Assembly: GCA_026390695.1 (NCBI GenBank) | Contig: JAPLFL010000096.1 | Location: 1-38,302, forward strand | Source of the DNA: Candidatus Kapaibacterium sp. | GTDB taxonomy: Bacteria; Bacteroidota; Ignavibacteria; Kapaibacteriales; UBA2268 | DNA length: 38,302 bases | Direction of reading: 5' to 3' | Shown here: one piece after another, positions 854-21,004 of the stretch | How positions within the stretch are numbered: position 1 is the first letter of the stretch | Layout of the letters: each line of letters starts with the position of its first letter | The notes under the pieces: model-generated | Database searches by the model: none | The model's input: the letters and a program-made list of their open reading frames with translations, nothing else | What the model was told of the DNA's origin: nothing | Translations under genes and position numbers: made by a program

Positions 854-3800
854 ATGAACATTTTTTACTTCTTTACATATCTTTTAATCGGAGCTATTAG
901 TGCGAATTGTGCTGATTTAGTGCAGTTTAATATATCTACTATGGATAATCCTGCACCGGGTTATATTTTAACTGGTCCGATTAATCAGAATTTAGTCTCT
1001 ATTTACGATAATAGCGGACTGGCTGTCTATACCAAGGATTTGAGTTATTTGGGGCAGCGGTTTCTTTCACTGCGTGTTCTCGAAGATGGCACCATTGCTT
1101 GCTTTGGAAGCAACAAAAGGCAATGGGTTATCATGGATAAATCCTTGAACGTTATCGATAGTATTTGCTCTAACGATAGTCTGCTCCTTGATTTTCACAC
1201 ACTTCATCTGTCACCGCAAGGAAATTACTTGGTTGCCTTTGATAGAATAATCAATATGGATCTGTCTGCATTGGTTCCCAATGGTAATAAGAATGCTGAA
1301 GTTAATGATCAGGAAATTTTTGAATTTGAAAGAACATCTAAGGCTGTCCTTTTTCATTGGAAAACAAGTGAGCACATAGATATTAGTGAAGCAACTCTTG
1401 ATATAAGTTTCAATCTTCCTAATGTTGATCCTTTCCATCTGAATAATGCAATTTATGATGCTGATGGCAATCTTTTACTGAACTACCGCCATCTTGATGA
1501 AATTGTTAAAGTAAACCGAGCAACCGGAGCCATTATATGGAAAATGGGAGGTTCCAAATCCAAGGCAAATCAATTTACTTTTTATAACGATACATATAAT
1601 AATTTTACAGGATTTTCTCATCAGCACTGTTCTTATCGCTTAGCCAATGGCAACCTTTTGATATTTGATAATGGGCAATTGAAACCAACAAAGTTTTCAC
1701 GTGCAGTCGAATATCAGGTTGATGAAGCAAATAAAACAGTCACTAAAGTATGGGAATATCGCCATAGCCCTGATATTTATGCAGGTTCAATGGGAAGTGC
1801 TACCAGATTAGTAAATGGAAATACAATAATTGGTTGGGGACAGAATTCAACCGATTTGGTGGCTGCTACTGAGGTAAATACAAATTCATCCATTGTTTTT
1901 GAGATGACTGCTCCGACATCTTCTTATTTTTATCAGATGCTCAGATCTGTTTTTATTATGGATGCTGTCTCAAAAAACATTTCATCTTCTGGAAATTATC
2001 TTTTTAATGACGAAAAATGTACCACAGGAGCCAACTTATATATTGAGTCATCATCGGGTTCTGGAAATATTTCCGTTGAAAAGCATTATTATCTTCCACA
2101 TAATATAAACTATACAAATACTATCGCCTGTACTATTCTACCTTACAGGTGGGTTATCAATCAAAGTGGGATACAGATAAATAAAGGAAAATTATCAATT
2201 GACTTATCAACAATTAAAAATACCATCAATCCAACAGAACTAAAAGTGTTCAGAAGACAAAGTGAAATTAACGGATCGTTTCAATTGATAGAAACTTCTT
2301 TTAACCAGCAATTTAACAGATTAGAAGCGCCTATTGCTAATGGGGGAGAGTTCTTTATTGCCACTGTTTCGCTTCCTCAAACAACTTTATTATCACCTGA
2401 AAATAATGCAAAGGACATTCTTACAAGCATTAGATTAAGTTGGAACCAAAGTACAGTTGCTGGCTTTTACAGATTGCAGGTCTCTACCTCAGATAAATTT
2501 GATAAACTTATCATTGATACCAATGGCATTAATACTAATCAGCTTGTTATAGGTGCTCTTGCAAATTACACCCGGTATTTTTGGAGAGTTCAATTTAATA
2601 ATGATAATTGTACTGGAAATTGGTCAACTGTAAATTCGTTTACAACAATAATTGCTGTGCCTAATCAAGTTTATCCACCAAATCTTGCCATTGATATACC
2701 ATTGAATCCTTTATATAAATGGTTAACCGTTAAAGGCGCCGATAAATTTCATATCCAGATAGCGACTGATTCTAATTTTATTAAAATTATGGATGATGCT
2801 TACTCTATTGATACCATCTATTATTCCTACAAAAATCTTAAATTGGTTACTAAATACTATTGGCGTGTTGCGGCTTCCAAAGCAGGACAATATGGTGTGT
2901 GGTCTGATATTGATGCTTTTACAACCCAACAGTTTAAAGTAAATCTTCGTCAACCAGTTAACAAAATTGCAGGAGTGCCTCCGTCCGGAGATTTAGTCTG
3001 GGACACAATTCCTGGCATCAGCAATTATGAACTTAAAATTTATAAAGATTCGAGCCTGAAGCAAGTTCTTAACGAAGTTAATATCCAAAATAAAAACAAT
3101 TATAAATATAATAATTTTAATTATTCTTCAAGGTATTTCTGGCAGGTTCGCGGTAAATCATCCGATACGGTAACTCTGTGGTCTGAAGTTTGGCAGTATA
3201 GAGTTATTGCCGACACTCCTGTTTTAAAGTTACCTCTGGATAATAGTCAAAATATAACTAATAGCGGAACATTGCAGTGGGACTCTATTAATAATGGAGT
3301 AACTTATAGAATTCAATTATCCAAAGACTCTAATTTTAAAAGCTTCATATTTGACAAAATTATTAATAATTTAAATTATAATTATTCAAATCTGTTATAC
3401 AATTCAACATATTATTGGAGAGTTCATGCTTTTGACGGTGAAACTATTGGCGACTGGTCTGAAGTTCGCTGTTTCTCAACGGCTCCTCAATTGATTTATC
3501 CTGCCAATGAAGATTATAAAGTTCCTACAAAAATATCTTTTTCGTGGCATCCTATCGTCTTTGCCATCGGATATTTTATACAGATTGCTGAAGATGCACA
3601 ACTAACTATGAATTCAAGAACATTTTTCCAATCTTCAACGGACACAAATTTCGCAATTACCGATCTTGGATTAAATCACACCTATTATTGGACGATTAAA
3701 CCCAAATTTGGCTCTTCATTCCCCACGTACTGGCTTAATCCTTTCAAATTCACAACCATTTTGGATAAACCGGATCCGCTTGTACCTTTTGATATGGATA

Positions 3801-4615
3801 CTCTTTATTCAAAGACATTCGAAATGCGCTGGCAAAAATCCGAACAAGCTGATAAATATTGGTTACAAGTAGCAACTGATGCAGGATTTAAAGATTTAGT
3901 TATAAACAATAATAATATAAGTGATAATATTTTTAATATTGATAATATTAAAGACAATTCTTATTACTGGCGTGTTTGTGCTTTAAGTGGTAAAAATGGC
4001 AGTGAATGGACTTCTTCGCAATTTTTTGTATTAACTTCAAATAATTTGCCATTAATTTCTCCCAATGGTGGCGAGGTTTGGGGAAAAGACTCTAATGGAA
4101 GAATAATCAACTGGCCGGCTGAATTAGGAGATAAAGTCAGAATAGATCTGTTAAAATCAGGAATGTACTATTCAACAATTTCATCGGATTATAAGAGCGC
4201 CAATCAAAAGTATCTCTGGCAAATTCCCGATTCCATAAATGGCGGAACGTCTTATCAGGTGCGGGTTACAAGTTTAACAAACAATAAAATTCGTTCAATA
4301 AGTCAAGCTTATTTTACAATCGATAATACCAGTGAAGTTAAGAACTATGAAGATAAGTATTTTGATGTCACTTGTTATCCCAATCCTTTTGAAACAAATA
4401 CTACATTTGAAATATCTTTAAAAACTGCATCTAAAGCAACTGTTTCAATATATGATGAAAATGGAAGGTTAGTAACAAAAATATTTGATTCGTATCTTTC
4501 AGGAGGAATATTTAGGTTTAAATATAATGCAGAACTGCTTCCAGCCGGATTCTATATATATGAAATCAATGTTGAAGGAATAACTAAAACAGGAAGAATG
4601 ACACTTCTAAAATAG
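854..4615 (+). CDS. Secreted arylsulfotransferase-fold protein with fibronectin-like repeats and T9SS sorting domain
   Basis: 1253 aa. Residues 1 to about 20 are a Sec signal peptide. Residues about 30-365 match the arylsulfotransferase (ASST) family: a beta-propeller with the box DPFHLNNAIYDADGN (His195), Arg212 in NYRHLDEIVKVN, IIWKMGG (228-233) and FSHQH (His256, His258) followed by FDNG (271-274). Family enzymes move sulfate between phenolic compounds, and several of these His/Arg are candidate active-site residues; substrate is unknown. About residues 505-1075 hold six fibronectin-III-like repeats, each with a YYWRV/YFWRV core and a W-S motif. One SPNGGE-type Ig-like domain follows (about 1080-1170), then a T9SS type A tail (PNPF, IYDENGRLV, GFYIYEI). 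The protein is probably exported by Sec and then T9SS. It is monocistronic with its own promoter and a hairpin behind it. Confidence 0.85.
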   Translation: MNIFYFFTYLLIGAISANCADLVQFNISTMDNPAPGYILTGPINQNLVSIYDNSGLAVYTKDLSYLGQRFLSLRVLEDGTIACFGSNKRQWVIMDKSLNVIDSICSNDSLLLDFHTLHLSPQGNYLVAFDRIINMDLSALVPNGNKNAEVNDQEIFEFERTSKAVLFHWKTSEHIDISEATLDISFNLPNVDPFHLNNAIYDADGNLLLNYRHLDEIVKVNRATGAIIWKMGGSKSKANQFTFYNDTYNNFTGFSHQHCSYRLANGNLLIFDNGQLKPTKFSRAVEYQVDEANKTVTKVWEYRHSPDIYAGSMGSATRLVNGNTIIGWGQNSTDLVAATEVNTNSSIVFEMTAPTSSYFYQMLRSVFIMDAVSKNISSSGNYLFNDEKCTTGANLYIESSSGSGNISVEKHYYLPHNINYTNTIACTILPYRWVINQSGIQINKGKLSIDLSTIKNTINPTELKVFRRQSEINGSFQLIETSFNQQFNRLEAPIANGGEFFIATVSLPQTTLLSPENNAKDILTSIRLSWNQSTVAGFYRLQVSTSDKFDKLIIDTNGINTNQLVIGALANYTRYFWRVQFNNDNCTGNWSTVNSFTTIIAVPNQVYPPNLAIDIPLNPLYKWLTVKGADKFHIQIATDSNFIKIMDDAYSIDTIYYSYKNLKLVTKYYWRVAASKAGQYGVWSDIDAFTTQQFKVNLRQPVNKIAGVPPSGDLVWDTIPGISNYELKIYKDSSLKQVLNEVNIQNKNNYKYNNFNYSSRYFWQVRGKSSDTVTLWSEVWQYRVIADTPVLKLPLDNSQNITNSGTLQWDSINNGVTYRIQLSKDSNFKSFIFDKIINNLNYNYSNLLYNSTYYWRVHAFDGETIGDWSEVRCFSTAPQLIYPANEDYKVPTKISFSWHPIVFAIGYFIQIAEDAQLTMNSRTFFQSSTDTNFAITDLGLNHTYYWTIKPKFGSSFPTYWLNPFKFTTILDKPDPLVPFDMDTLYSKTFEMRWQKSEQADKYWLQVATDAGFKDLVINNNNISDNIFNIDNIKDNSYYWRVCALSGKNGSEWTSSQFFVLTSNNLPLISPNGGEVWGKDSNGRIINWPAELGDKVRIDLLKSGMYYSTISSDYKSANQKYLWQIPDSINGGTSYQVRVTSLTNNKIRSISQAYFTIDNTSEVKNYEDKYFDVTCYPNPFETNTTFEISLKTASKATVSIYDENGRLVTKIFDSYLSGGIFRFKYNAELLPAGFYIYEINVEGITKTGRMTLLK

Positions 4616-4890: not shown

Positions 4891-5463
4891 GTGAAACGAA
4901 CAGCACTCGATTACACGCTCAAAGTCAAGCTTCCAATCACAGTTTTCGTAATAGTAGTCACTTTTGCACTTACTTATTACATTGCTCGCCCTGAACGCGA
5001 TGGTATGGGGTATGGACCTGAACAGGAAATTAAATTTTCCCATAAACTTCATGCCGGAGATATGAATATTGACTGTAAATACTGTCATACAGGCGTTGAG
5101 AAAGGCCGTCATGCTACAATTCCAGCTTTAAGTACCTGCATGAATTGCCATTCTTTTGCGCGTAAGGACCGCCCTGATATTGTCAAACTGACAAATTATT
5201 ATGAGAATAATCTTCCTGTACCTTGGAAGAGAGTACATAGAGTTCCCGATTATGCTTATTTTAACCATAGCTCACATGTTCTGAAAGGAATAGATTGCAA
5301 GTACTGCCACGGCGACGTTCGCAAAATGGAAGTTGTACAGCAACTTCATTCTTTCACCATGGGAGCATGCTTGAACTGTCATCGCAATCCCAAAGCTGAG
5401 ATGAAAGATTTGACAGCCGAAGTAAAAAATGGGCCGACTACCTGCTATGGTTGCCATAGATAA
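4891..5463 (+). CDS. actA: Alternative complex III subunit ActA, pentahaem cytochrome c
   Basis: 190 aa. ActA is the periplasmic multihaem subunit of alternative complex III (quinol:cytochrome c oxidoreductase) and passes electrons from the ActB iron-sulfur chain toward c-type acceptors. It has an N-terminal uncleaved membrane anchor (about residues 13-31) and five CxxCH haem sites at residues 62-66, 83-87, 136-140, 160-164 and 185-189. The last lies at the very C-terminus, and five is the usual number for ActA. The start is GTG at 4891, preceded by AAGGA at 4881-4885; the ATG two bases earlier is out of frame and runs straight into TGA. It is the first gene of the operon, 37 bp before the next ORF. 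Confidence 0.93.
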   Translation: MKRTALDYTLKVKLPITVFVIVVTFALTYYIARPERDGMGYGPEQEIKFSHKLHAGDMNIDCKYCHTGVEKGRHATIPALSTCMNCHSFARKDRPDIVKLTNYYENNLPVPWKRVHRVPDYAYFNHSSHVLKGIDCKYCHGDVRKMEVVQQLHSFTMGACLNCHRNPKAEMKDLTAEVKNGPTTCYGCHR

Positions 5464-5500
5464 GAAATAAGAAAAATTTAATAATTAATATAAAGCGTAT

Positions 5501-5695
5501 ATGAAAGAAGAAAATAATCTTGCAAAACGCAGGAAATTCCTTGCCGGAACTCTCGGCTGGGGAGCATTGGCAGCAATGATTCTTAATTCTACGCCTTTCA
5601 GATTGTTGGCTAAACCTTTTTCACCTAAAAAAGAATTAAAGCCACCGGTTACAATACATCCTTTAGCCATTAAACGAGAAAAGAAAGGATTGTAA
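5501..5695 (+). CDS. Small Tat-signal-like membrane protein between actA and actB, function unknown
   Basis: 64 aa. I do not recognise a family. The N-terminal half looks like a twin-arginine signal: KRRKFLAG (from residue 9) followed by a hydrophobic stretch (about 15-34). It is then followed only by about 30 polar, Lys/Pro-rich residues with no cofactor motif. It could be a single-span anchor or an accessory peptide of the complex, or the remains of a larger Tat substrate. It lies inside the act operon, its stop is one base before the actB ATG, and its 3' end carries AAAGGA, the ribosome site of actB. That position argues that it is a real, co-expressed gene. It has no obvious Shine-Dalgarno sequence of its own. 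Confidence 0.7.
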   Translation: MKEENNLAKRRKFLAGTLGWGALAAMILNSTPFRLLAKPFSPKKELKPPVTIHPLAIKREKKGL

Positions 5696-5696
5696 C

Positions 5697-8600
5697 ATGG
5701 ACCAAATTAAAACACTCTGGAAAAGCGCTGAAAGCTACTATGACAGTAGCTCTACGAATCAGGTTACTGAATTTGCCGATAGCGTAACTAATGAATTTAA
5801 TCCCGATACTATGTCTGGGGTTTCACGACGTAAATTTCTTGCACTCGTTAGCGCAGGAACTGCATTTGCAGCTACTGCCTGCACTAATTACCGTGATAAA
5901 AAAGAGATTGTTGAATATGTTAATAAGCCGGACTCAGCAAATACGGGTCTTCCGAATTATTATGCTTCAACATGCACTGAATGCCCATTAGCATGCGGTA
6001 TTGTCATTAAAACACGTGAAGGACGCCCTATAAAAATTGATGGCAACGAACTGCATCCGATTAATCTGGGAAAAACATGTGTGCGCGGACAAGGGACTAT
6101 TCTTAATTTATATGATCCGATCAGGCTCAAGAAGCCATCAAGAGGCAGTAAAATGCTTACTGAAGATTGGAAAACAATTGATGAGGAACTTATTGCTTTA
6201 TTCAAAAAAGCCACTTCTGATAAAAAAGAAATTGCTATTCTTCATAATACGATTTTCTCACCATCTCAGAAAGCAGCATTCAATGTATTCATTGCAGCAT
6301 ATCCTACTGCTAAATTATATTGTTATGAGAACTTCTGTGATGACAGCAAACGTGAGGCTTTCGCATTGTCTTACTCTGATAAACAAAGCTGCTGCAGCAG
6401 TGCATCGTCAATTCCATTTAAATTGAATCAGGCTAAGGTAATTTTATCACTTGAATCTGATTTCTTAGGCAATGAAGGGCATTTTGTTAGAAATATCAAA
6501 CAGTTTTCAGAAACACGCGACGTAAATAAATTAGATAAATTCTCTCGTTTATATGTGGCTGAAGCAGGTATGAGCCTAACCGGAATGAATTCCGATTACA
6601 GACTAAGGTTAACACCTGAGAAACAATTGGATTTCTTATTGACTATCATCTCGGCTATTGCTGCCAAACACGTTTCAAAGTTTGAATTGCCTTTGGATTT
6701 TGCATCTAAACTTAATAATTATAATATTAAGAAATTTGCCGATGAAAATGGCATTAAAGCTCAAACGATTGATTATTTGGTAGATGACTTAATAAAAAAT
6801 ACAGGCTCATCCTGTGTTATATCTGGCAATAAACTGCCAAAAGAAGTACATATAGCTGCAAATCTAATAAATGAAATGATTGAAGCACAAAATCTTTGTG
6901 ACTGCGAGTATTGCCAGACTAATTATTGCGATTGTGCAAGCGACAAAGATTTGACTGATATGCTTGGACGAGCAAAAGCAGGACAGGTAGCAGCGATTAT
7001 CAATTTTGATTCAAATCCTGTATATCAGCTTCCACAGGAATTCGGATATTCGGAAGCATCATCTAAAACAACCGTTATCACTTTGTCCGAATTTAATAAC
7101 GAAACAAGCTCTGTTAGCCATTTTGTATTGCCAATCAATCATAATTTGGAATCATGGGGCGATGCAAATACTAATTGCAGTGTATTTTCGCTTCAGCAGC
7201 CAGTTATTGCACCACTTTATGATACTCGCCAAAAGGAAGCAGTCCTATTAATCTGGGCATCAGGAAAAGCTGATTATAATGATAAGGTTTATTTAAATCT
7301 GATAAAAGATTACTGGCAGAAGGAAGTATTCCCAAAATCAGGATCAGCCGCAGATTTTGATACTTTTTGGTATTCATGTCTTCATGATGGGGTTGTTGAG
7401 ATAAAAAGCACAAAATGTGATACTTTAAAATTCAATTTCGATGCTCTGAAAGCTCTTGATAAGAAATATGAGAAAAAAGATTTTACTTTGCTTATTAATG
7501 ATAATCCTTTCTTTGGAACAGGAAAATTTGTTGGTAATGGCTGGCTGCAGGAATTGCCTCATCCGGTAACAAAACTGACTTGGGATAATTGCGCAATGAT
7601 AGCTCCTGCAACAGCTAAGGAACTTGGCGTTGAAATGGGCGATTTTATTGAAGTATCATCCGGAAATAACAAATTAAAAATTCCAGCATTCCATCAGCCA
7701 GGTATGGCAGAGAAAACTATTGCAATTGATTTAGGATATGGTCGAAAAAATGTGGGTGAAATTGGCTCTGAAGTTGGTTTTGATGTCAGCCCGTTCATCA
7801 GTTCAAACGGTATCTCCAAATATATTTACAGTGGTGTAACTGTTGTTAAAGGGTCTGGTCACTACAAACTTGCAACTACTCAGGAGCATCATTCTCTGGA
7901 TGAAAAGTTTGTTAAAGATCTGCATTTAAAGCGTGGAATTGTCCGCGAAGGAACAGTGGAGGAGTATAAAACAACTCCGAATTTCCTGAAGGAAAAATTT
8001 GAAGAAGGAAATCCAGTGTCAATCCATTCTCAGGTCAGCTATACGGGTATGAAATGGGCAATGGCATTGGATATGAATAAATGCGTAGGATGTGCTCTTT
8101 GTGTGCAAAGCTGTAATGTTGAAAATAATATTCCGGTTGTTGGCAAAGATCAGGTTGCAAATGGCCGTGAAATGCACTGGATGCGAGTGGACAGATATTA
8201 CTCCGGTACTACCGAGGAACCGATAGTCAGCCAGCAGCCTATAAATTGCAGTCATTGCGACAATGCGCCTTGTGAGAATGTTTGTCCGGTTGTTGCAACA
8301 AGCCACAGTCCAGACGGATTGAATCAAATGGTTTACAATCGCTGCGTTGGAACACGTTATTGCGCAAATAACTGCCCAACTAAAGTCAGAAGATATAATT
8401 TCTTCGATTTTCGTGAACACTTTGCTCAAGGCTACTACACACAAGATTCTCTTTCATTATTGCATAATCCTGAAGTTACGGTTCGTTCACGTTCCGTAAT
8501 GGAGAAATGCACATTCTGTATTCAAAGAATAATGGAAGGCAAACAGGAAGCACTCAAAGCAGGAAAAGATTTTAAAGGATCAGACGTTAAAACCGCTTGT

Positions 8601-8783
8601 CAGGTTGCATGCCCTGCAGAGGCAATAAGTTTTGGAGATGTGAACGATCCTGAATCGGATGTAGCGAAAATCAGGAAACATGATTTATCATATTCATTAC
8701 TTGATGAATTATATATTAAATCAAACGTACATTATATAGCAAGATTAAGAAACACAAATTCGGAGAAAAATAGTGAGCGTTGA
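5697..8783 (+). CDS. actB: Alternative complex III subunit ActB, molybdopterin-oxidoreductase-like plus iron-sulfur domain
   Basis: 1028 aa, the large periplasmic subunit. It has a Tat signal SRRKFL (Arg44-45) and a lipobox-like end at Cys62, suggesting a lipid anchor. The B1 domain (about 85-720) resembles molybdopterin oxidoreductases such as PsrA, which in ACIII carries no Mo cofactor. The B2 domain (about 780-990) is ferredoxin-like: Cys796/799/802/806; Cys851/854/859/863; Cys883 with Thr in place of the next Cys, then Cys889/893 (typical of a 3Fe-4S site); and Cys938/941/968/972. That gives three 4Fe-4S and one 3Fe-4S cluster feeding ActA. Oddities are an apparently intact CxxCxxxC (Cys93/96/100) plus Cys128 in B1, and a Cys cluster at 401-413 ([13 protein letters not shown]). 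The gene starts one base after the previous stop and overlaps actC by 11 bp. Confidence 0.93.
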
Positions 8784-10143
8784 CGTATTACACGAACCTT
8801 CGGTAATCGAAGGACGACCGACTTTTCACGAGATTAACGAGCATATAACAAAGCCAACCGAAGTTCGTCCGGATAGAAAATATATGATTGCACTTGCAAT
8901 TACTTCATCGTTACTTGCATTGGGTGCTACTTGTATGATTATTACCCACTGGTATGGTATCGGAATGTGGGGAAATAATAATCCTGTGGGCTGGGCTTTC
9001 GACATTGTTAATTTTGTTTTTTGGATTGGTATTGGTCATGCCGGTACTCTAATTTCAGCAATTTTATTCTTATTCAGACAAAAATGGAGAACCGGAATAG
9101 CGCGTTTTGCAGAGGGGATGACAATTTTTGCAGTTATGACTGCAGGAATATTTCCACTGATGCATGTCGGACGACCATGGTTAGACGGCTGGCTGTTTCC
9201 TTATCCTAATCAGAATAAATTATGGGTGAATTTTACTTCACCACTTTTATGGGACGTTTTTGCTGTTTCAACTTATTTCACAGTTTCTGCAATTTTCTGG
9301 TATATGGGATTAGTTCCAGATTTTGCCAGTATGAGGGATAGAGCAACAGTAAAGTTTAAAAAAGTTATTTACTCAATTTTTAGTCTCGGATGGCGCCATT
9401 CAAACAGACATTGGCAGCATTATGAGATGATGTATTTGATTTTAGCCGGTTTTGCCACTCCTTTGGTTCTCTCGGTTCATACGATAGTAAGTTTTGACTT
9501 TGCAGTTTCTATTCTGCCGGGTTGGCACACAACTATTTTTCCACCTTATTTCGTTGCAGGAGCAGTATTCTCAGGCTTTGCAATGGTTCAGAATGTGTTG
9601 ATTTTTGTTCGTAAAATTTTCAATTTTGAACATATAATCACACTTGACACTCTTGAGAAAATGAATAAAATAATGCTTGCAACCGGAATGATGGTTGGCT
9701 ATGCTTATGGAATGGAATTTTTCATTGCATGGTATAGCGGAAGTCCTATGGAAATGTTTGTATTTGTTAACCGTGCTTTTGGTAATTATGCATGGGCATA
9801 TTGGATCATGGTTTCCTGCAATGTGATTTTCCCACAATTCTTCTGGAGCCGCAAAATCAGACGCACTATTCCATTGATGTTTATTATCGGTGTATTTGTG
9901 AATGTTGGAATGTGGTTCGAGCGTTTTGTGATCATTGTTTCATCGCTTTCAAGAGACTTTCTACCTTCGAGCTGGGCATATTACACTCCTACATTTTATG
10001 ACATTGGAATTTTATTAGGTAGTTTCGGCTTGTTCTTTACTTTGGTATTATTATTTATAAAGACTCTTCCTGTTGTTTCAATAGCTGAGGTAAAGGCAGT
10101 TATACATGGTTCACAACCCACACATAAAGGAGGGAACCACTGA
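8773..10143 (+). CDS. actC: Alternative complex III subunit ActC, NrfD/PsrC-type quinol-binding membrane protein
   Basis: 456 aa polytopic inner-membrane protein of the NrfD/PsrC family, with about ten transmembrane segments between residues 38 and 440. In ACIII this subunit forms the periplasm-facing quinol site beside ActB. Family-typical stretches include [14 protein letters not shown], the [10 protein letters not shown] loop and [11 protein letters not shown]. The start is GTG at 8773 with GGAG at 8762-8765 and an 11-bp overlap with actB, implying translational coupling. The stop codon shares one base with the ATG of the next gene, and a strong AAAGGAGGG at 10126-10134 lies just before that ATG. 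Confidence 0.93.
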
Positions 10144-11282
10144 TGCAAGAAAAAGTATTATATGCAATGAGTGCATTGTTTGACACGCCGGATGCAATTA
10201 TCCAAGCTGCTGAATCAGTTCAGAAAGCCGGATATAAAAAATTCGATGTAAATACTCCATATCCTGTACATGGAATGGACAATGCGATGAAATTAAAACC
10301 ATCAACATTAGGTTATTTCGCTTTTATTATTGGTATTTTTGGCGCTATTATGGCTGTGGCTGGTATGGGTTATTTAACAGGTGTCGATTATCCGAATGTT
10401 ATGGGCGGAAAACCATTCTTTGCTTTACCGGCTTTCATTCCGATTACATTTGAGGTAACAGTTCTTTCAGCTTCGGTTGCTACTGTTGTTATAATGATTG
10501 CTTTTTTCTTCAAACTGCCAAATAATTCTCATCCGGTTCATAATACAGAATACATGAAGAATGTGTCTGATGATAAATTTGGTGTTTTAGTCGAAGCAAA
10601 AGATGCAATGTTTGATGCTGCCAAAGTTGAAGATTTATTCAGAAGTTTGGGTGCAAGCAGAATAATTCCGATTTATTATGATCTTGAAGATATTCGAACA
10701 GTTGGTAATATTTTTAGACCTAAATTTGTATTATTTTTGGCGATAGTTGTATTTGTTAGTGCAGGATTAACTTATGGAGTACTGAATCGTTTATTATTTA
10801 TTCCTCCCTTTACCTGGATGGTATATCAACCGCGTGTAAATGCCCAGCAAAAATCAAATATGTTTGCTGATGGTTCAGGAATGCGCAATCCGGTTGATGG
10901 GACAGTTGCAAGAGGTTGGATGCCTTACAGATATTCAGGCAAGCCAGATGAAGCAGGTCTGAATTTAGTCAATCCATTAATTCCTAATACTCATACTTTA
11001 GATTTAGGTAAAAAGAATTTTGATGTTTATTGCAGTCCTTGTCACGGATACCTTGCAAAGGGTGATTCCAGACTTCGCGGACAATTCCCCAATCCACCAA
11101 CCTTACATTCAGATAAGGTCAGGAACTGGACAGACGGAAGAATCTATGCGGTTATTACAGATGGACAAAACTCAATGCCGTCATATTCAAGATTGGTTTC
11201 TCCGAGTGACAGATGGGCAGTTATACTTTATATACGCGAGCTTCAGCGCGCGCTTAACGCAAAGCAGGAGGATTTAAAATGA
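10143..11282 (+). CDS. actDE: Fused alternative complex III subunits ActD and ActE (membrane subunit plus monohaem cytochrome c)
   Basis: 379 aa. Residues 1 to about 185 are ActD (DUF3341): a cytoplasmic start containing YPVHGMD, then two membrane spans (about 55-80 and 98-123) and a soluble region. A third span (about 193-216) follows, leading into an ActE-type domain with a class I cytochrome c site CSPCH at 297-301 and a likely Met345 axial ligand (SMPSYSR). ActD and ActE are normally two proteins, and ActE normally has its own lipoprotein signal. Here no stop, start or lipobox separates them, so the third span replaces the lipid anchor and carries the haem domain to the periplasm. There is a 1-bp overlap with actC and a 4-bp ATGA overlap with actF. 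Confidence 0.9.
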   Translation: MQEKVLYAMSALFDTPDAIIQAAESVQKAGYKKFDVNTPYPVHGMDNAMKLKPSTLGYFAFIIGIFGAIMAVAGMGYLTGVDYPNVMGGKPFFALPAFIPITFEVTVLSASVATVVIMIAFFFKLPNNSHPVHNTEYMKNVSDDKFGVLVEAKDAMFDAAKVEDLFRSLGASRIIPIYYDLEDIRTVGNIFRPKFVLFLAIVVFVSAGLTYGVLNRLLFIPPFTWMVYQPRVNAQQKSNMFADGSGMRNPVDGTVARGWMPYRYSGKPDEAGLNLVNPLIPNTHTLDLGKKNFDVYCSPCHGYLAKGDSRLRGQFPNPPTLHSDKVRNWTDGRIYAVITDGQNSMPSYSRLVSPSDRWAVILYIRELQRALNAKQEDLK

Positions 11283-12469
11283 GTCAACAAGAAAATAATA
11301 TTGTTTATACACAAAAGAATTTACCATCAAAGCTATTAACAATTGGCGTAGTAATTCTAATAGTCGGATTGGTACTTGCCGGAGCTTCTTATCTGATTGA
11401 CCCTGTCCGAGCTTCTTTTAATAGTCTTATTTCTATGATGTTCGGCTTATCAGTCGGTTTAGGAATACTGTTTATTATTGGCTTGGAGCATCTTACAGGA
11501 GCTGTTTGGAGTGTCCCTTTCCGTCGGGTGGCTGAATATTTAGGTGGTATTTTATACATTGTACCAATACTTGCTATTCCAGTATTTTTGAATATGCACG
11601 GAGTCTTTTCCTGGTCTGATCCTGCTGTAATTGCTAAGGATCATGTTTTACAGGGTAAAGTACCATATTTGAATACAGGATTTTTCTATATAAGATTTGC
11701 ACTTGCATTTATAGTTCTCTGGTTTTTCTTTACCATGTTTAAAAGAAATTCAATAAAAATGGATTCAAATCCAAGCGAATCTTATGTGAAATCAAGTAAA
11801 ATATTATCAGCGGTAATGATGCCTTTCTTTGCAATTTTCACTACAATTATGGCAGTTGATTGGCTAATGAGCGTTGTTCCGCGTTGGTTTTCAACCATTT
11901 TTGGTGTTTATTACTTTGCCGGATCATTTCTTGCGGGTTTGGGTGCCTTGACTTTGGTGGTTATTATGCTCAACAAACGAGGGTATTTGGCAAAAGGTTT
12001 GGGTGGAGATAATTATTACAGCCTTGGTGCTTTTATGTTTGCGATAACAAATTTCTGGTCATATATTGCTTTTAGCCAGTATATGCTTATTTGGTATGCA
12101 AATTTGCCAGAGGAAACGTTTTGGTTTATTCCTCGTTTACACACCAGTTGGGTATGGATGACAGCAGGTTTACCGCTAATTAAATTTATTATTCCATATA
12201 TATTCATTCTATCTCAACCCTCGAAGAAGGACCCGAAGAGATTAACAATTGCTGCAATTATGATAATGTTTGGTCATTATTATGATTTATTCTGGCTCGT
12301 TATGCCTGCTTATCACAAAGAAGGTTTCTTCTTCAGTTGGAATGAACTTGCATTCCCGATTCTCTTGATTGGAGCAACAATAACATATTTTGCAATTGTA
12401 ACGAAAAATAAGAATTTAATACCAGTTAATGATCCGAAATTGCCACAGGGCATTAATTTTCATTTGTAA
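11279..12469 (+). CDS. actF: Alternative complex III subunit ActF, second NrfD-like membrane protein
   Basis: 396 aa integral membrane protein with about ten predicted spans, a diverged paralogue of ActC often annotated as quinol:cytochrome c oxidoreductase quinone-binding subunit 2. In solved complexes it packs beside ActC and has been discussed as a possible proton path. Recognisable family features are the long first pair of spans followed by GLEHLTGAVWSVPFRRVAEY, the NTGFFYIRFALAF segment and the SYIAFSQYMLIWYANLPEE loop. It starts at ATG 11279 with AGGAGG upstream and overlaps actDE by 4 bp. A 76-bp gap containing a hairpin separates it from the next cytochrome gene. Confidence 0.92.
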   Translation: MSQQENNIVYTQKNLPSKLLTIGVVILIVGLVLAGASYLIDPVRASFNSLISMMFGLSVGLGILFIIGLEHLTGAVWSVPFRRVAEYLGGILYIVPILAIPVFLNMHGVFSWSDPAVIAKDHVLQGKVPYLNTGFFYIRFALAFIVLWFFFTMFKRNSIKMDSNPSESYVKSSKILSAVMMPFFAIFTTIMAVDWLMSVVPRWFSTIFGVYYFAGSFLAGLGALTLVVIMLNKRGYLAKGLGGDNYYSLGAFMFAITNFWSYIAFSQYMLIWYANLPEETFWFIPRLHTSWVWMTAGLPLIKFIIPYIFILSQPSKKDPKRLTIAAIMIMFGHYYDLFWLVMPAYHKEGFFFSWNELAFPILLIGATITYFAIVTKNKNLIPVNDPKLPQGINFHL

Positions 12470-12477
12470 ATAATTTG

Positions 12478-12508
12478 ATCATCAGATTAATTGAAGCCAT
12501 CTGATGAT
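12478..12508 (+). other. Intercistronic hairpin between actF and the cytochrome c gene
   Basis: A perfect 10-bp stem ATCATCAGAT (12478-12487) with ATCTGATGAT (12499-12508) and an 11-base loop. No T-run follows, so it is more likely an RNA-stability or processing element that separates actF from the last gene than a full terminator. Confidence 0.6.
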
Positions 12509-12545
12509 TATTCAAGGATTATGTGAAAAAATAAAAAGGAAATAT

Positions 12546-13475
12546 ATGGATACAAATTTTATACATGAAGACGAAATAGATTTTAAAGCGGTTATGCGCA
12601 CTCCCAAGCGGCAAATCGGGCTTTTTTTAATTCTGTTGATCGCTGCAATCGAAGTAGCTGGCTGGTTCTATCTTAACAATATGAGTGTAGCTTATCTGAA
12701 AACTACTATTGACCTGCCTGAACCAATCAATACTTTTGAACGTGCCGTCGATACAAAAGCTGGAACATTTGTCGAAGGAATTGATTTAAAGAAATATTAT
12801 CAACCAAACGATAGTATGATTAACAAGGGAAAAGAACTGTTTTTAGCTACCTGTGCTTCTTGTCATAATCAAAACGGTGATGGCAACGGTCAAGTCGGTG
12901 TGGCTTTAAATCCAAAACCACGTAATTTTATTAGCGCCGAAGGCTGGAAATTCGGGCGTAATTTTGCCGATATTTTTAAAACATTAAAACAAGGTTCACC
13001 AGGTACTGCAATGGCATCATTTGATGCAATTCCGCTGCCAGACCGGATGGCTTTGATTTATTTTATTCAAACATTCGCAAAGGATTTCCCAAAGCCTACA
13101 GTTGATGATTTTACAGCACTGGATGGCACTTATAATCTTTCAAAAGGTGGAATGAGTCCGAATAATGTTACTCTTGAGACTGCTGAACAGAAGATAATTG
13201 ACGAAAACAAAGTGAATAATGAGAAGTTGGCAGCTCTTATAAAGACTTCCGAAGATAATTGCTGTGCTCCACCTCTTAAGAAAGTTATCAGATGCAAAGA
13301 AAAAGCTTATGGTGCCTTACTAAATTCAAATGCTTGGGTTGGAAGCACAGATAATTTTGTGAAATTTTTACAGAATACCATTTCCACTAATGGCTTTAAA
13401 CCAACAATTCTAACTTTATCATCTCAGGAATTAACGACCTACTATAATTATTTTCTGACTCTGAAGAAAAGTTAA
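12546..13475 (+). CDS. Membrane-anchored monohaem cytochrome c at the end of the act operon
   Basis: 309 aa. It has an N-terminal membrane span (about residues 23-43) and a class I cytochrome c domain with CASCH at 103-107 and a Met ligand candidate at 156 (TAMASF). It is then followed by about 120 residues without a recognised domain that contain a Cys pair (EDNCC) and a single Cys. It is a plausible electron acceptor for ACIII, taking the place where SCO/CoxB/caa3 oxidase genes often follow. I chose ATG 12546 because ATAAAAAGGA lies at 12531-12540. An in-frame start at 12504 would add 14 residues but lies inside the hairpin region and has no ribosome site. A strong terminator follows. Confidence 0.85.
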   Translation: MDTNFIHEDEIDFKAVMRTPKRQIGLFLILLIAAIEVAGWFYLNNMSVAYLKTTIDLPEPINTFERAVDTKAGTFVEGIDLKKYYQPNDSMINKGKELFLATCASCHNQNGDGNGQVGVALNPKPRNFISAEGWKFGRNFADIFKTLKQGSPGTAMASFDAIPLPDRMALIYFIQTFAKDFPKPTVDDFTALDGTYNLSKGGMSPNNVTLETAEQKIIDENKVNNEKLAALIKTSEDNCCAPPLKKVIRCKEKAYGALLNSNAWVGSTDNFVKFLQNTISTNGFKPTILTLSSQELTTYYNYFLTLKKS

Positions 13476-18204: not shown

Positions 18205-18651
18205 ATGATCATTAAAATTAATAATAAAGACTATGACCTTAATATCGATCCTAATATGCCGCTGCTCTGGGTTTTGAGGGATATTCTCGGTTTAACCGGC
18301 ACAAAATACGGATGCGGTGTGGGCGATTGTGGCTCCTGCATGGTGCTTGTAGATTCAGTTGCACGGAAATCATGTATTTTACCAGTTTCGCAAATTGTAG
18401 GGAAGAGCATCACAACTATCGAAGGATTGTCTTCTGACGCAAGCCACATAGTGCAGAAAGCATGGATCGAAGCAGGTGTCCCGCAATGTGGCTATTGCCA
18501 GCCCGGGCAAATAATGAGCGCTGTAGGGCTGCTAATTGCCATTCCTAAACCAACTGACGATGATATTAATAATGCAATGAGCGCTAATATTTGCCGTTGT
18601 GGAACATATAGTCGAATCAGAGCTGCTATTCACATTGCTGCGAAAGGATAA
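18205..18651 (+). CDS. Molybdenum hydroxylase small subunit, two 2Fe-2S clusters (IorA/CoxS-like)
   Basis: 148 aa, the small electron-transfer subunit of xanthine-dehydrogenase-family hydroxylases, closest by eye to isoquinoline 1-oxidoreductase alpha. The plant-type ferredoxin cluster is Cys37/42/45/57 (CGVGDCGSC). The second cluster is Cys95/98 (QCGYCQPG) and Cys130/132 (NICRCGTY). It moves electrons from the Mo site of the large subunit. It has no signal peptide, so any export must be piggy-back with the Tat-bearing large subunit. I chose ATG 18205, with AGGT at 18194-18197, over an in-frame TTG five codons upstream. The stop is 4 bp before the large-subunit ATG. Confidence 0.92.
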   Translation: MIIKINNKDYDLNIDPNMPLLWVLRDILGLTGTKYGCGVGDCGSCMVLVDSVARKSCILPVSQIVGKSITTIEGLSSDASHIVQKAWIEAGVPQCGYCQPGQIMSAVGLLIAIPKPTDDDINNAMSANICRCGTYSRIRAAIHIAAKG

Positions 18652-18655
18652 GGAA

Positions 18656-21004
18656 ATGGAAAATTATCAAAATACAGAATCAGTCAATACCCGTAGGAAT
18701 TTTTTACTTCAGATTTCTACTCTTGGCACCGGATTAATTTTAAGTGGTTTAATTCCAGCGAATCAGGCTTTAGCTCAACTTATTAAAGAAAAAAACGAAA
18801 TTCAGAGTTTTATACCTAATGTATGGCTGGAAGTGCAGTCAGACAATACTGTCATTATTACGATCGGGCAATCAGAATTAGGGCAAGGTACACGTACATC
18901 GCTTGCAATGGCTGTGGCAGATGAAATGGATGCAGACTGGGCAAATGTGAAAATTGTTCAGGGGAATGCAAGTAATGCTAAATATGGCTCCCAGTCAACC
19001 GGAGGCTCAAGTAGCATAACCGGTAAACTGACGATTATGCGCCAAGCAGGAGCTACAGCACGTGCAATGTTTATTACTGCAGCAGCACAGACATGGAATA
19101 TTGCTGAAAGCGCATGTAAGGCTGATGCAGGATATATTTTAGAAATTGCCGGATCCAGAAAATTATCTTATGGTGATTTATCTACAAAGGCTGCTACCCT
19201 GCCTGTACCAACGAATTTAACTTTAAAAACCGCTAAAGATTTTAAATATATAGGATCATCAAAGCCGGTCTTTGATTGTGCCGATATTGTAATGGGAAAG
19301 ACAGAATTTGGAATCGATGCCAAAGTAACAGGCTTGAAATATGCTATGGCAGCCTTCCCACCGACAATAGGTGCATCAGTTAAATCTTACGATGATACCG
19401 ATACATTAAAGATTCCCGGAGTTCTTAAAACTTTTAAAGCTGCAGGTGGAGTTGCTGTGGTGGCTGATAATACTTATGCAGCAATGCAAGGAGTTGAAGC
19501 TTTGAAAATTTCCTGGAATATGGGTAGCAATACCGGATTAAATTCAGATGTTATTTATAAATCTCTGACCGATAAAATTGGAACACTCGATTCACTGCCC
19601 GGAAACACTATAAAAACTTTGGAAGCTACATATCAGGTGCCATTTTTAGCTCATGCTCCGATGGAACCGATGAACTGCACGGTTAATATCCAAGGTACAA
19701 CGTGTGAAGTATGGGTATCAAGTCAGGACAGCCAGTCGGTACAAGCAACAGTTGCAAGTGCCACTGGAATTAGCGCTGCTAATGTGACTGTACATAGCTG
19801 TTTATCCGGTGGTGGATTTGGTCGCCGGTCAAATGTTGATTACGCCAATTATGCAGCCTCTATAGCCAAGCAAAGCGGTTATCCAATCAAATTTTTATAT
19901 TCTCGAAAAAATGATATTCAGCGTGATAATTCTAATCGTCCAGCCAGTGTTCATGCGCTTAAAGCAGGATTAGACACTTCAGGAAAAATAACGGGTTGGG
20001 TTCATCGGGGGATTTATGCCGGTGGGGGCAGTGTTGGTTCGCCACCATATAGCCTTCCAAGCCCGAAAAATTATCAGGATGCCGGAAATACAACTGTTCC
20101 CACGGGGGCATGGCGCTCCGTTTCCGCTTCTCAATGTGTTTTTGCGATTGAATGTTTTATTGATGAAATTGCTTTAGCAGCCGCTAAAGACCCTCTTGAT
20201 TTTCGATTGGGAATATCAAACAACTCAAGGGTAACTGCCGTTCTTAATGAGCTCAAAACCCGCTCTAACTGGACTAATCCGCTTCCAAAAGGATCAGGCC
20301 GCGGAGTCTCAATTTTTTCGGGATGGGGTGGATATTGCGGACATGTGGTTGAAGTTACGGTTAATAATGGGATACTGAAGGTAGATCGAGCAATTTGCGT
20401 GGTCGATGTTGGATTTGCACTCAATCTATTTACAATTGAATCTCAAATGATGGGCGGAATAATAGATGGCTTGTCAACTGCAACCAGAGCGGAAATAACT
20501 ATTGCTGCCGGAGCAGTTGAACAAACAGGTTATGGAGATTTCCAGTGGTTCCGCATGAATGAAGCTCCTAAAATTGAAGTGTATATTATTCACACCGGCA
20601 CCAGTCCGAGTGGAGTTGGAGAGCTTGGCTTCCCAACTGTGACTCCGGCTCTATGTAATGCTATTTATAATGCAATTGGAGTGCGTATTCGTCGTTTGCC
20701 AATTTCTTATACGGAATTAAAATCAACTTCGGTAAAGGAAGAAATAAATAGGGATTTGATTAAGGTCAATCCAAATCCTTTTGGAAATGAAATTAATATT
20801 GATTTGACCAATGTTGAAAAATTAGGGCAATTAGAATGTAAAATTTATGACATATCGGGTAATCTTATATATATGTCGTCATTTCCACAAAATTTTATGG
20901 CTAATAATTATTCAATTGATTCAAGTAATTTTATTTCCGGTACTTATATTTTGAGAATAAGTACAGCTAATAAGCATTATACAGCAAAGATACAAAAAGT
21001 TTAA
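18656..21004 (+). CDS. Molybdenum hydroxylase large subunit (IorB-like) with Tat signal and T9SS sorting tail
   Basis: 782 aa. The twin-arginine signal TRRNFL (Arg13-14) with a hydrophobic core to about 41 is typical of IorB-type subunits. The molybdopterin-binding body (about 50-690) shows GQSELGQGT (71-79), QSTGGSSS (113-120), SGGGFGRR (384-391), VPTGAWRSV (481-489) and GVGELGFP (653-660), where Glu656 is the expected catalytic base. The family hydroxylates N-heterocycles or aldehydes using water; the substrate here is unknown. After residue about 700 there is an extra T9SS type A domain (VNPNPFGNEINIDL, IYDISGNLIYM, SGTYILRIST) that IorB proteins normally lack. ATG 18656 was chosen for its ATAAGGAA ribosome site, rather than an in-frame GTG at 18599 inside the small-subunit gene. 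The pair forms a two-gene operon ended by a hairpin. Confidence 0.92.
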   Translation: MENYQNTESVNTRRNFLLQISTLGTGLILSGLIPANQALAQLIKEKNEIQSFIPNVWLEVQSDNTVIITIGQSELGQGTRTSLAMAVADEMDADWANVKIVQGNASNAKYGSQSTGGSSSITGKLTIMRQAGATARAMFITAAAQTWNIAESACKADAGYILEIAGSRKLSYGDLSTKAATLPVPTNLTLKTAKDFKYIGSSKPVFDCADIVMGKTEFGIDAKVTGLKYAMAAFPPTIGASVKSYDDTDTLKIPGVLKTFKAAGGVAVVADNTYAAMQGVEALKISWNMGSNTGLNSDVIYKSLTDKIGTLDSLPGNTIKTLEATYQVPFLAHAPMEPMNCTVNIQGTTCEVWVSSQDSQSVQATVASATGISAANVTVHSCLSGGGFGRRSNVDYANYAASIAKQSGYPIKFLYSRKNDIQRDNSNRPASVHALKAGLDTSGKITGWVHRGIYAGGGSVGSPPYSLPSPKNYQDAGNTTVPTGAWRSVSASQCVFAIECFIDEIALAAAKDPLDFRLGISNNSRVTAVLNELKTRSNWTNPLPKGSGRGVSIFSGWGGYCGHVVEVTVNNGILKVDRAICVVDVGFALNLFTIESQMMGGIIDGLSTATRAEITIAAGAVEQTGYGDFQWFRMNEAPKIEVYIIHTGTSPSGVGELGFPTVTPALCNAIYNAIGVRIRRLPISYTELKSTSVKEEINRDLIKVNPNPFGNEINIDLTNVEKLGQLECKIYDISGNLIYMSSFPQNFMANNYSIDSSNFISGTYILRISTANKHYTAKIQKV

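Follow-up and report, generated by a model that had tools for sequence, protein, structure and literature searches.

The type IX secretion system (T9SS) is described as moving folded proteins that reach the periplasm by Sec (PMC9251779), and Sec is described as the export route of its known cargo (PMC9251779, PMC4804311; all sources here are cited from excerpts). Type A cargo, including gingipains and many C-terminal domain (CTD) proteins, shares a C-terminal PF18962/TIGR04183 domain. In the open-licence literature searched, no title or abstract opening dealt with T9SS cargo exported by twin-arginine translocation (Tat), which does not imply absence from print. To our knowledge, it is not settled whether T9SS moves finished complexes. 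Here, a predicted xanthine oxidase (XO) family molybdenum hydroxylase was analyzed, encoded by a gene pair in a window of 38,302 nt (the whole stretch of DNA under study, contig JAPLFL010000096.1, C27 in our numbering) from a 4.63 Mb Candidatus Kapaibacterium genome of 129 contigs and completeness 100. Unlike Sec-exported type A cargo, its large subunit carries a Tat-like signal together with the sorting domain, and the transported form is probably a dimer with bound cofactors. We consider it likely that the enzyme is extracellular or surface-bound and uses the two export systems in series. A two-subunit enzyme delivered by Tat would be a new form of T9SS cargo.

The best sequence match of both subunits was 8gy3, the membrane-bound aldehyde dehydrogenase of Gluconobacter oxydans (small subunit against 8gy3_B, E 5e-49), and the top Foldseek PDB match of the large-subunit model was 8gy3_C (E 5.8e-55). 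This enzyme likewise has a small 2Fe-2S subunit and a large molybdenum subunit, with SRRNFL at the N-terminus of its large chain, and the alignment to that chain stops before the sorting domain of the window protein. The G. oxydans enzyme also has a heme subunit. The label IorB-like, given in the initial annotation, proved loose, with 8gy3 being the closest solved relative and no NCBIfam equivalog cut-off being reached.

A molybdenum enzyme outside the outer membrane is known from Shewanella oneidensis, whose extracellular dimethyl sulfoxide (DMSO) reductase DmsAB, a molybdenum enzyme with a 4Fe-4S subunit, is described as secreted to the surface by type II secretion (PMC9048795). It shares with the window enzyme the pairing of a molybdenum and an iron-sulfur subunit but differs in the secretion system, and its superfamily is not that of the window enzyme but that of the ArrA-like proteins described below. 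If our reading is true, T9SS bacteria gain a counterpart of this reductase.

Gene pair and conservation of its two export signals

The gene for the large subunit starts 4 bp after the stop of the small-subunit gene. The coordinates and features first described for the two subunits hold and are as follows.

18205..18651, + strand: small 2Fe-2S subunit, 148 aa, ATG to stop (PF01799, 101.8 bits; PF00111, 33.3 bits)
18656..21004, + strand: large molybdopterin-binding subunit, 782 aa, ATG at 18656, with a Tat-like signal and a T9SS type A sorting domain
18656..18775, + strand: predicted twin-arginine signal, residues 1-40 (TRRNFL at 12-17; ALA at 38-40, cleavage site by eye)
18818..20725, + strand: molybdenum hydroxylase core, MoCoBD_1 and MoCoBD_2, residues 55-690 (Pfam; Foldseek)
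20726..20767, + strand: linker between core and sorting domain, residues 691-704 (pLDDT below 50 for 691-699 in the model)
20768..20998, + strand: T9SS type A C-terminal sorting domain, residues 705-781 (PF18962, TIGR04183)

The large subunit matched MoCoBD_1 (PF02738) at 106.6 bits and MoCoBD_2 (PF20256) at 95.2 bits. Its GVGELG motif at residues 653-658 contains Glu656, which we take to be the catalytic Glu of the molybdenum hydroxylase family and which was invariant in all 17 orthologues described below and in a broad alignment of 20. The small subunit has eight cysteines, at positions 37, 42, 45, 57, 95, 98, 130, and 132. Judged by the MoCoBD domains, E656, and the eight-Cys 2x[2Fe-2S] partner, the pair is an XO family molybdenum hydroxylase.

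The large subunit begins with NTRRNFLLQISTLGTGLILSGLIPANQALAQ, in which T12-R13-R14-N15-F16-L17 can be read; after this come residues of moderate hydrophobicity and ALA at 38-40. At the other end, PF18962 (Por_Secre_tail) matched residues 705-779 at 46.8 bits (cut-off 27; 50.7 bits in a genome-wide search), and TIGR04183 matched residues 705-781 of 782 at 38.4 bits (cut-off 23). Both the N-terminal TRRNFL and a type A sorting domain past residue 700, as originally noticed, were thus confirmed. The AlphaFold model (mean pLDDT 80, pTM 0.74) showed the hydroxylase core; the linker was poorly defined at 691-699, and the region from 703 to 781 contained seven strands, modelled with low confidence (block pLDDT 47-70).

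In an order-level search of 123 genomes, 25 gave a match at E <= 1e-60. Seventeen full-length orthologues, the window's included, each had at least 44% identity in that search and were aligned; the fragments in genomes G006 and G112, a broken second copy in G110, and locus L001, which duplicates the window, were left out. In G110, two adjacent large-subunit copies, one of them frame-broken, lie at C167:3549-7325. R13, R14, and F16 were invariant in 17/17 orthologues. PF18962 matched 15 of the 17, and the two without the domain (G017 and G083) belong to one genus, g18. In this genus, no remnant of a sorting domain was seen by eye in three translated frames of the 600 bp 3′ of the stop. All 15 retained domains matched both PF18962 and TIGR04183 at E <= 1 (best E 2.7e-13).

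An assembly join or contamination has a negligible probability. The genome is in 129 contigs, but the frame is open, and the same fusion occurs in 14 further species of this order, among them G086 with a single-contig genome. This recurrence contradicts chance as well as a join at about 20740, which the initial annotation had listed as a possible refutation.

A quick tree of the best 75 of 129 sequences placed the 17 orthologues in one clade (SH-aLRT 100). Because the two domain-less members nest inside it, one gain and one loss of the sorting domain is the simplest history. Outside the clade, RR-x-[FLIVM] near the N end was found in 74 of 80 named relatives, 23/23 loci of a 395-genome phylum sample, and 12/12 loci of f7, a family within this order. 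Since the motif is widespread in relatives without the domain, the twin arginine is the older of the two and the sorting domain a later addition. C-termini were read in relatives with a locus or with an open frame of at least 750 aa. No sorting domain was present in 79/80 named XO-family loci (the remaining one, L045, is cut by a contig end), in the 23 phylum-sample loci or the 12 family f7 loci (all of these with tails of at most 13 aa), or in another 16 rows of the phylum sample that have long frames (tails of at most 14 aa). The combination had been presumed rare, which holds within this search: among the XO-family C-termini read, the domain did not occur outside one clade of one order.

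The small subunit adjoins the large one at 18/18 loci of the clade. The small subunits showed no signal, and all eight Cys were invariant (17/17). In G009, genes for an XdhC-family maturation factor (167.9 bits, below the cut-off of 350) and a MocA-type cytidylyltransferase (127.4 bits, below the cut-off of 186.45) come after the pair, and in G111 XdhC_C is encoded about 1 kb 3′ of the enzyme genes; in the window genome, XdhC is on a separate contig, C43. In contrast to 8gy3 with its heme subunit, no gene with two or more heme motifs (CxxCH) was found within 4 kb at any of the 18 clade loci, some of which are cut short by contig ends, and a partner cytochrome was rejected on this ground. Such a gene was present within 4 kb on the same strand in 20/80 named relatives, in a comparison where flanks are of unequal length and loci are not independent.

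TatC was found in 19/19 genomes with the gene (in the window genome on contig C24, 223.3 bits, cut-off 25.1), as was the T9SS translocon SprA, TIGR04189 (on C99, total 911.6 bits, cut-off 200). The window genome encodes at least 150 sorting-domain proteins, a lower bound because 150 of 286 candidates were scored. Of the 149 besides the enzyme, 144 were examined (142 on other contigs and 2 on the window contig), and 139 of these have a complete N end, the other 5 extending past the end of a contig. None of these 139 was Tat-like in a search for RR, not KR, and 119 had a hydrophobic maximum of at least 1.8. The maximum was 1.57 for the molybdenum enzyme against a median of 2.21 for the 139, a soft comparison because the starts of the latter were picked for hydrophobicity. 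RR-x-[FLIVMW] within the first 110 residues occurred in 3/142, none Tat-like: one motif lay behind a signal, one lay upstream of the likely start, and one read MRRILFF.

Split signals on a second molybdoenzyme family

Sorting domains recurred on a second molybdoenzyme family, resembling the reductase ArrA/ArrB. These cases come from the few loci looked at among other molybdopterin proteins, without a systematic search. Because they scored 999-1070 bits against a cut-off of 1600, the name ArrA denotes likeness only. In G071, the ArrA-like protein (L314:1887-4748) has both an RR signal, GRRDFLKTSALLSAGLAL, and PF18962 at 45.6 bits. Its gene is followed by genes for a 4Fe-4S subunit with neither signal nor sorting domain and for a DmsD/TorD/NarJ-type chaperone (PF02613, 102.4 bits; in NCBIfam closest to DmsD, at 55.6 bits, below the cut-off of 162).

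G086 (locus L316) and G008 (locus L319) are two species of a single genus, and in both the RR signal is carried by an ArrA-like subunit that has no sorting domain. The sorting domain is found instead on its partner, a 363-aa ArrB-like 4Fe-4S subunit that ends in PF18962 (31.7 and 27.2 bits, respectively, cut-off 27). The start of this subunit, MARYGMVIDL, has its ATG directly 3′ of a ribosome-binding site, leaving no room for a signal.

L316:9024-10112: ArrB-like 4Fe-4S subunit with sorting domain, without signal peptide (G086)
L319:5272-6360: ArrB-like 4Fe-4S subunit with sorting domain, without signal peptide (G008)

Signals split in this way are hard to explain unless assembly takes place in the cytoplasm and the complex then crosses by Tat, to be handed over whole to T9SS. 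We propose the same two-step route for the ArrA/ArrB-like reductase in these related genomes. Of the evidence presented, a sorting domain on a subunit with no way of its own to leave the cytoplasm argues most strongly that an assembled complex is exported. We infer sorting in trans strongly, and in a form that can be tested: a cargo that should need cytoplasmic folding to acquire its cofactor, together with a complex bearing its two signals on different chains, turns the question of whether T9SS transports complexes into a direct test.

A wider reading is that Tat delivers complete enzymes of several subunits, already loaded with cofactor, to T9SS for export, with a sorting domain acting in trans where the subunits divide the inner- and outer-membrane tickets between them. 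On the loci seen, molybdoenzymes would have gained sorting domains at least three times, on the XO-family large, the ArrA-like, and the ArrB-like subunits. Taken whole, and with the cofactor supply considered in the last section, we give this reading even chances.

Proposed export route and its alternatives

On the basis of a conserved fusion in genomes that encode TatC and SprA, the following route can be proposed. In accordance with established knowledge of the enzyme family, the small and large subunits would be loaded with cofactor and assembled in the cytoplasm and exported by Tat as a dimer. The RR-x-F signal would take the folded dimer over the inner membrane, with the small subunit as passenger. 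The sorting domain would then hand the dimer to T9SS, which would carry it folded through SprA. In T9SS, the sorting domain is cleaved and the cargo is anchored or released; here, too, the domain would be cut off and the enzyme anchored or released. Judging from its closest relatives, the enzyme most likely oxidizes aldehydes or N-heteroaromatics present in the medium. The initial annotation had already envisaged a folded heterodimer passing through Tat, with the 2Fe-2S subunit as passenger, and then through T9SS. This chain still has the best support: the two signals are conserved, all 19 genomes with the gene also encode TatC and SprA, the orthologous small subunits start without a signal peptide, and an unrelated molybdoenzyme splits the two signals in two species.

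Several observations weigh against this route. The curated TAT profiles were uninformative: PF10518 matched 1/17 orthologues (E 0.01) and TIGR01409 2/17 (best E 0.4), with the window protein unmatched, and the Tat call has the motif as its basis. PF10518 also scored the ArrA-like protein of G071 below threshold (17.9 against 22.7 bits). T9SS was judged from SprA alone among its parts, and Tat from TatC alone. The split-signal case was seen in two species of a single genus, and in one of these the domain barely exceeds the cut-off. The ratio of nonsynonymous to synonymous substitution (dN/dS) of the sorting domain was 0.88 between the window and L007, indicating weak constraint. Finally, genus g18 retains TatC, SprA, and the enzyme and is nevertheless without the sorting domain, so export is not indispensable.

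The missing profile matches would fit a large subunit that crosses unfolded via Sec like other T9SS cargo, with the twin arginine a leftover and the cofactors inserted later or never, and T9SS substrates are indeed described in a review as Sec-recognised (PMC9251779). However, a leftover motif is at odds with the invariance of RR-x-F in the clade and with RR-x-[FLIVM] near the N end of 74 of 80 named relatives. The small subunit lacks a signal, and maturation genes adjoin the pair in G009. Moreover, Sec leaves unexplained the signal-less ArrB-like protein with a sorting domain. We regard Sec export as quite unlikely.

The loss in g18 and the ratio of 0.88 could be taken to mean that the sorting domain has ceased to drive secretion, leaving the enzyme periplasmic like its relatives. 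On the other hand, 15/15 retained domains still match both profiles, and the dN/dS of the domain was low in five other pairs (0.085-0.238) and, for the ArrB-like domain of G086 against G008, 0.177. SprA is present in 19/19 genomes, and sorting domains recur on the second molybdoenzyme. A periplasmic enzyme is therefore rather unlikely, and export by Tat and then T9SS is preferred.

Cofactor supply and neighboring genes

The window genome has MoaA, MoaC, MoeA, and XdhC. Among the 19 genomes with the gene, MoaA was found in 8, MoaC in 8, and MoeA in 9, and all three were missing in ten (G018, G008, G089, G071, G086, G088, G017, G012, G095, and G083), including the single-contig genome of G086. 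These ten, without genes for synthesis of the molybdenum cofactor (Moco), fall in one tree clade of 11 (support 100), of which the eleventh, G073, has the genes. A search for XdhC_C in four of the ten found none. An XO-family protein with a T9SS domain was nevertheless present in 8/10.

Orphan molybdoproteins have been reported from several hundred organisms, mostly of the DMSOR and XO families, and Mo-independent forms are one suggestion for them (PMC6147048). The present case is alike in having an XO-family protein without a complete Moco pathway and differs in the T9SS domain carried in eight of the ten genomes. The puzzle of molybdoproteins without Moco synthesis is thereby made concrete in a defined clade.

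In the ten genomes, the protein might no longer use the molybdenum cofactor and might act as a 2Fe-2S or binding protein. The joint absence of MoaA, MoaC, and MoeA speaks for this, as do the suggested Mo-independent forms and the alteration of some broadly conserved positions, such as R391 to G in 4/10. But most of 90 broadly conserved positions are kept, E656 included, and several of the changes are common to relatives with the pathway. The core dN/dS was 0.036, 0.081, and 0.086 in the three pairs that could be computed, two further pairs being saturated; these values are rough because synonymous sites are near saturation. The enzyme thus appears to be under purifying selection in the genomes without the pathway. 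PhsA- or ArrA-like enzymes with RR signals are also encoded in four of them (G086, G008, G083, and G071), and a MobA-like protein in G071 and G008. Loss of the molybdenum cofactor is accordingly improbable, and it does not apply to the window genome, because MoaA, MoaC, MoeA, and XdhC are present there.

Under the wider reading of T9SS as an exporter of cofactor-loaded enzymes, those of this branch may be filled with scavenged cofactor, perhaps via a cluster with a TonB receptor and the MobA-like protein beside arrAB in G071 and G008. The cluster (L314:6336-10678 in G071; L319:3-4196 in G008) comprises two small membrane proteins without known family, the TonB receptor, NTPase_1, and the MobA-like protein. 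It is conserved in two genera without MoaA/MoaC/MoeA and possibly serves the uptake of a cofactor precursor, which is a guess.

Two other regions of the window were recorded. A gene run at 4891-13475 encodes cytochrome c7, a molybdopterin-like Fe-S protein, NrfD, and cytochrome c, and resembles what we take to be alternative complex III. At 854-4615, an arylsulfotransferase-like protein with fibronectin domains has a weak sorting domain (28.0 bits, cut-off 27).

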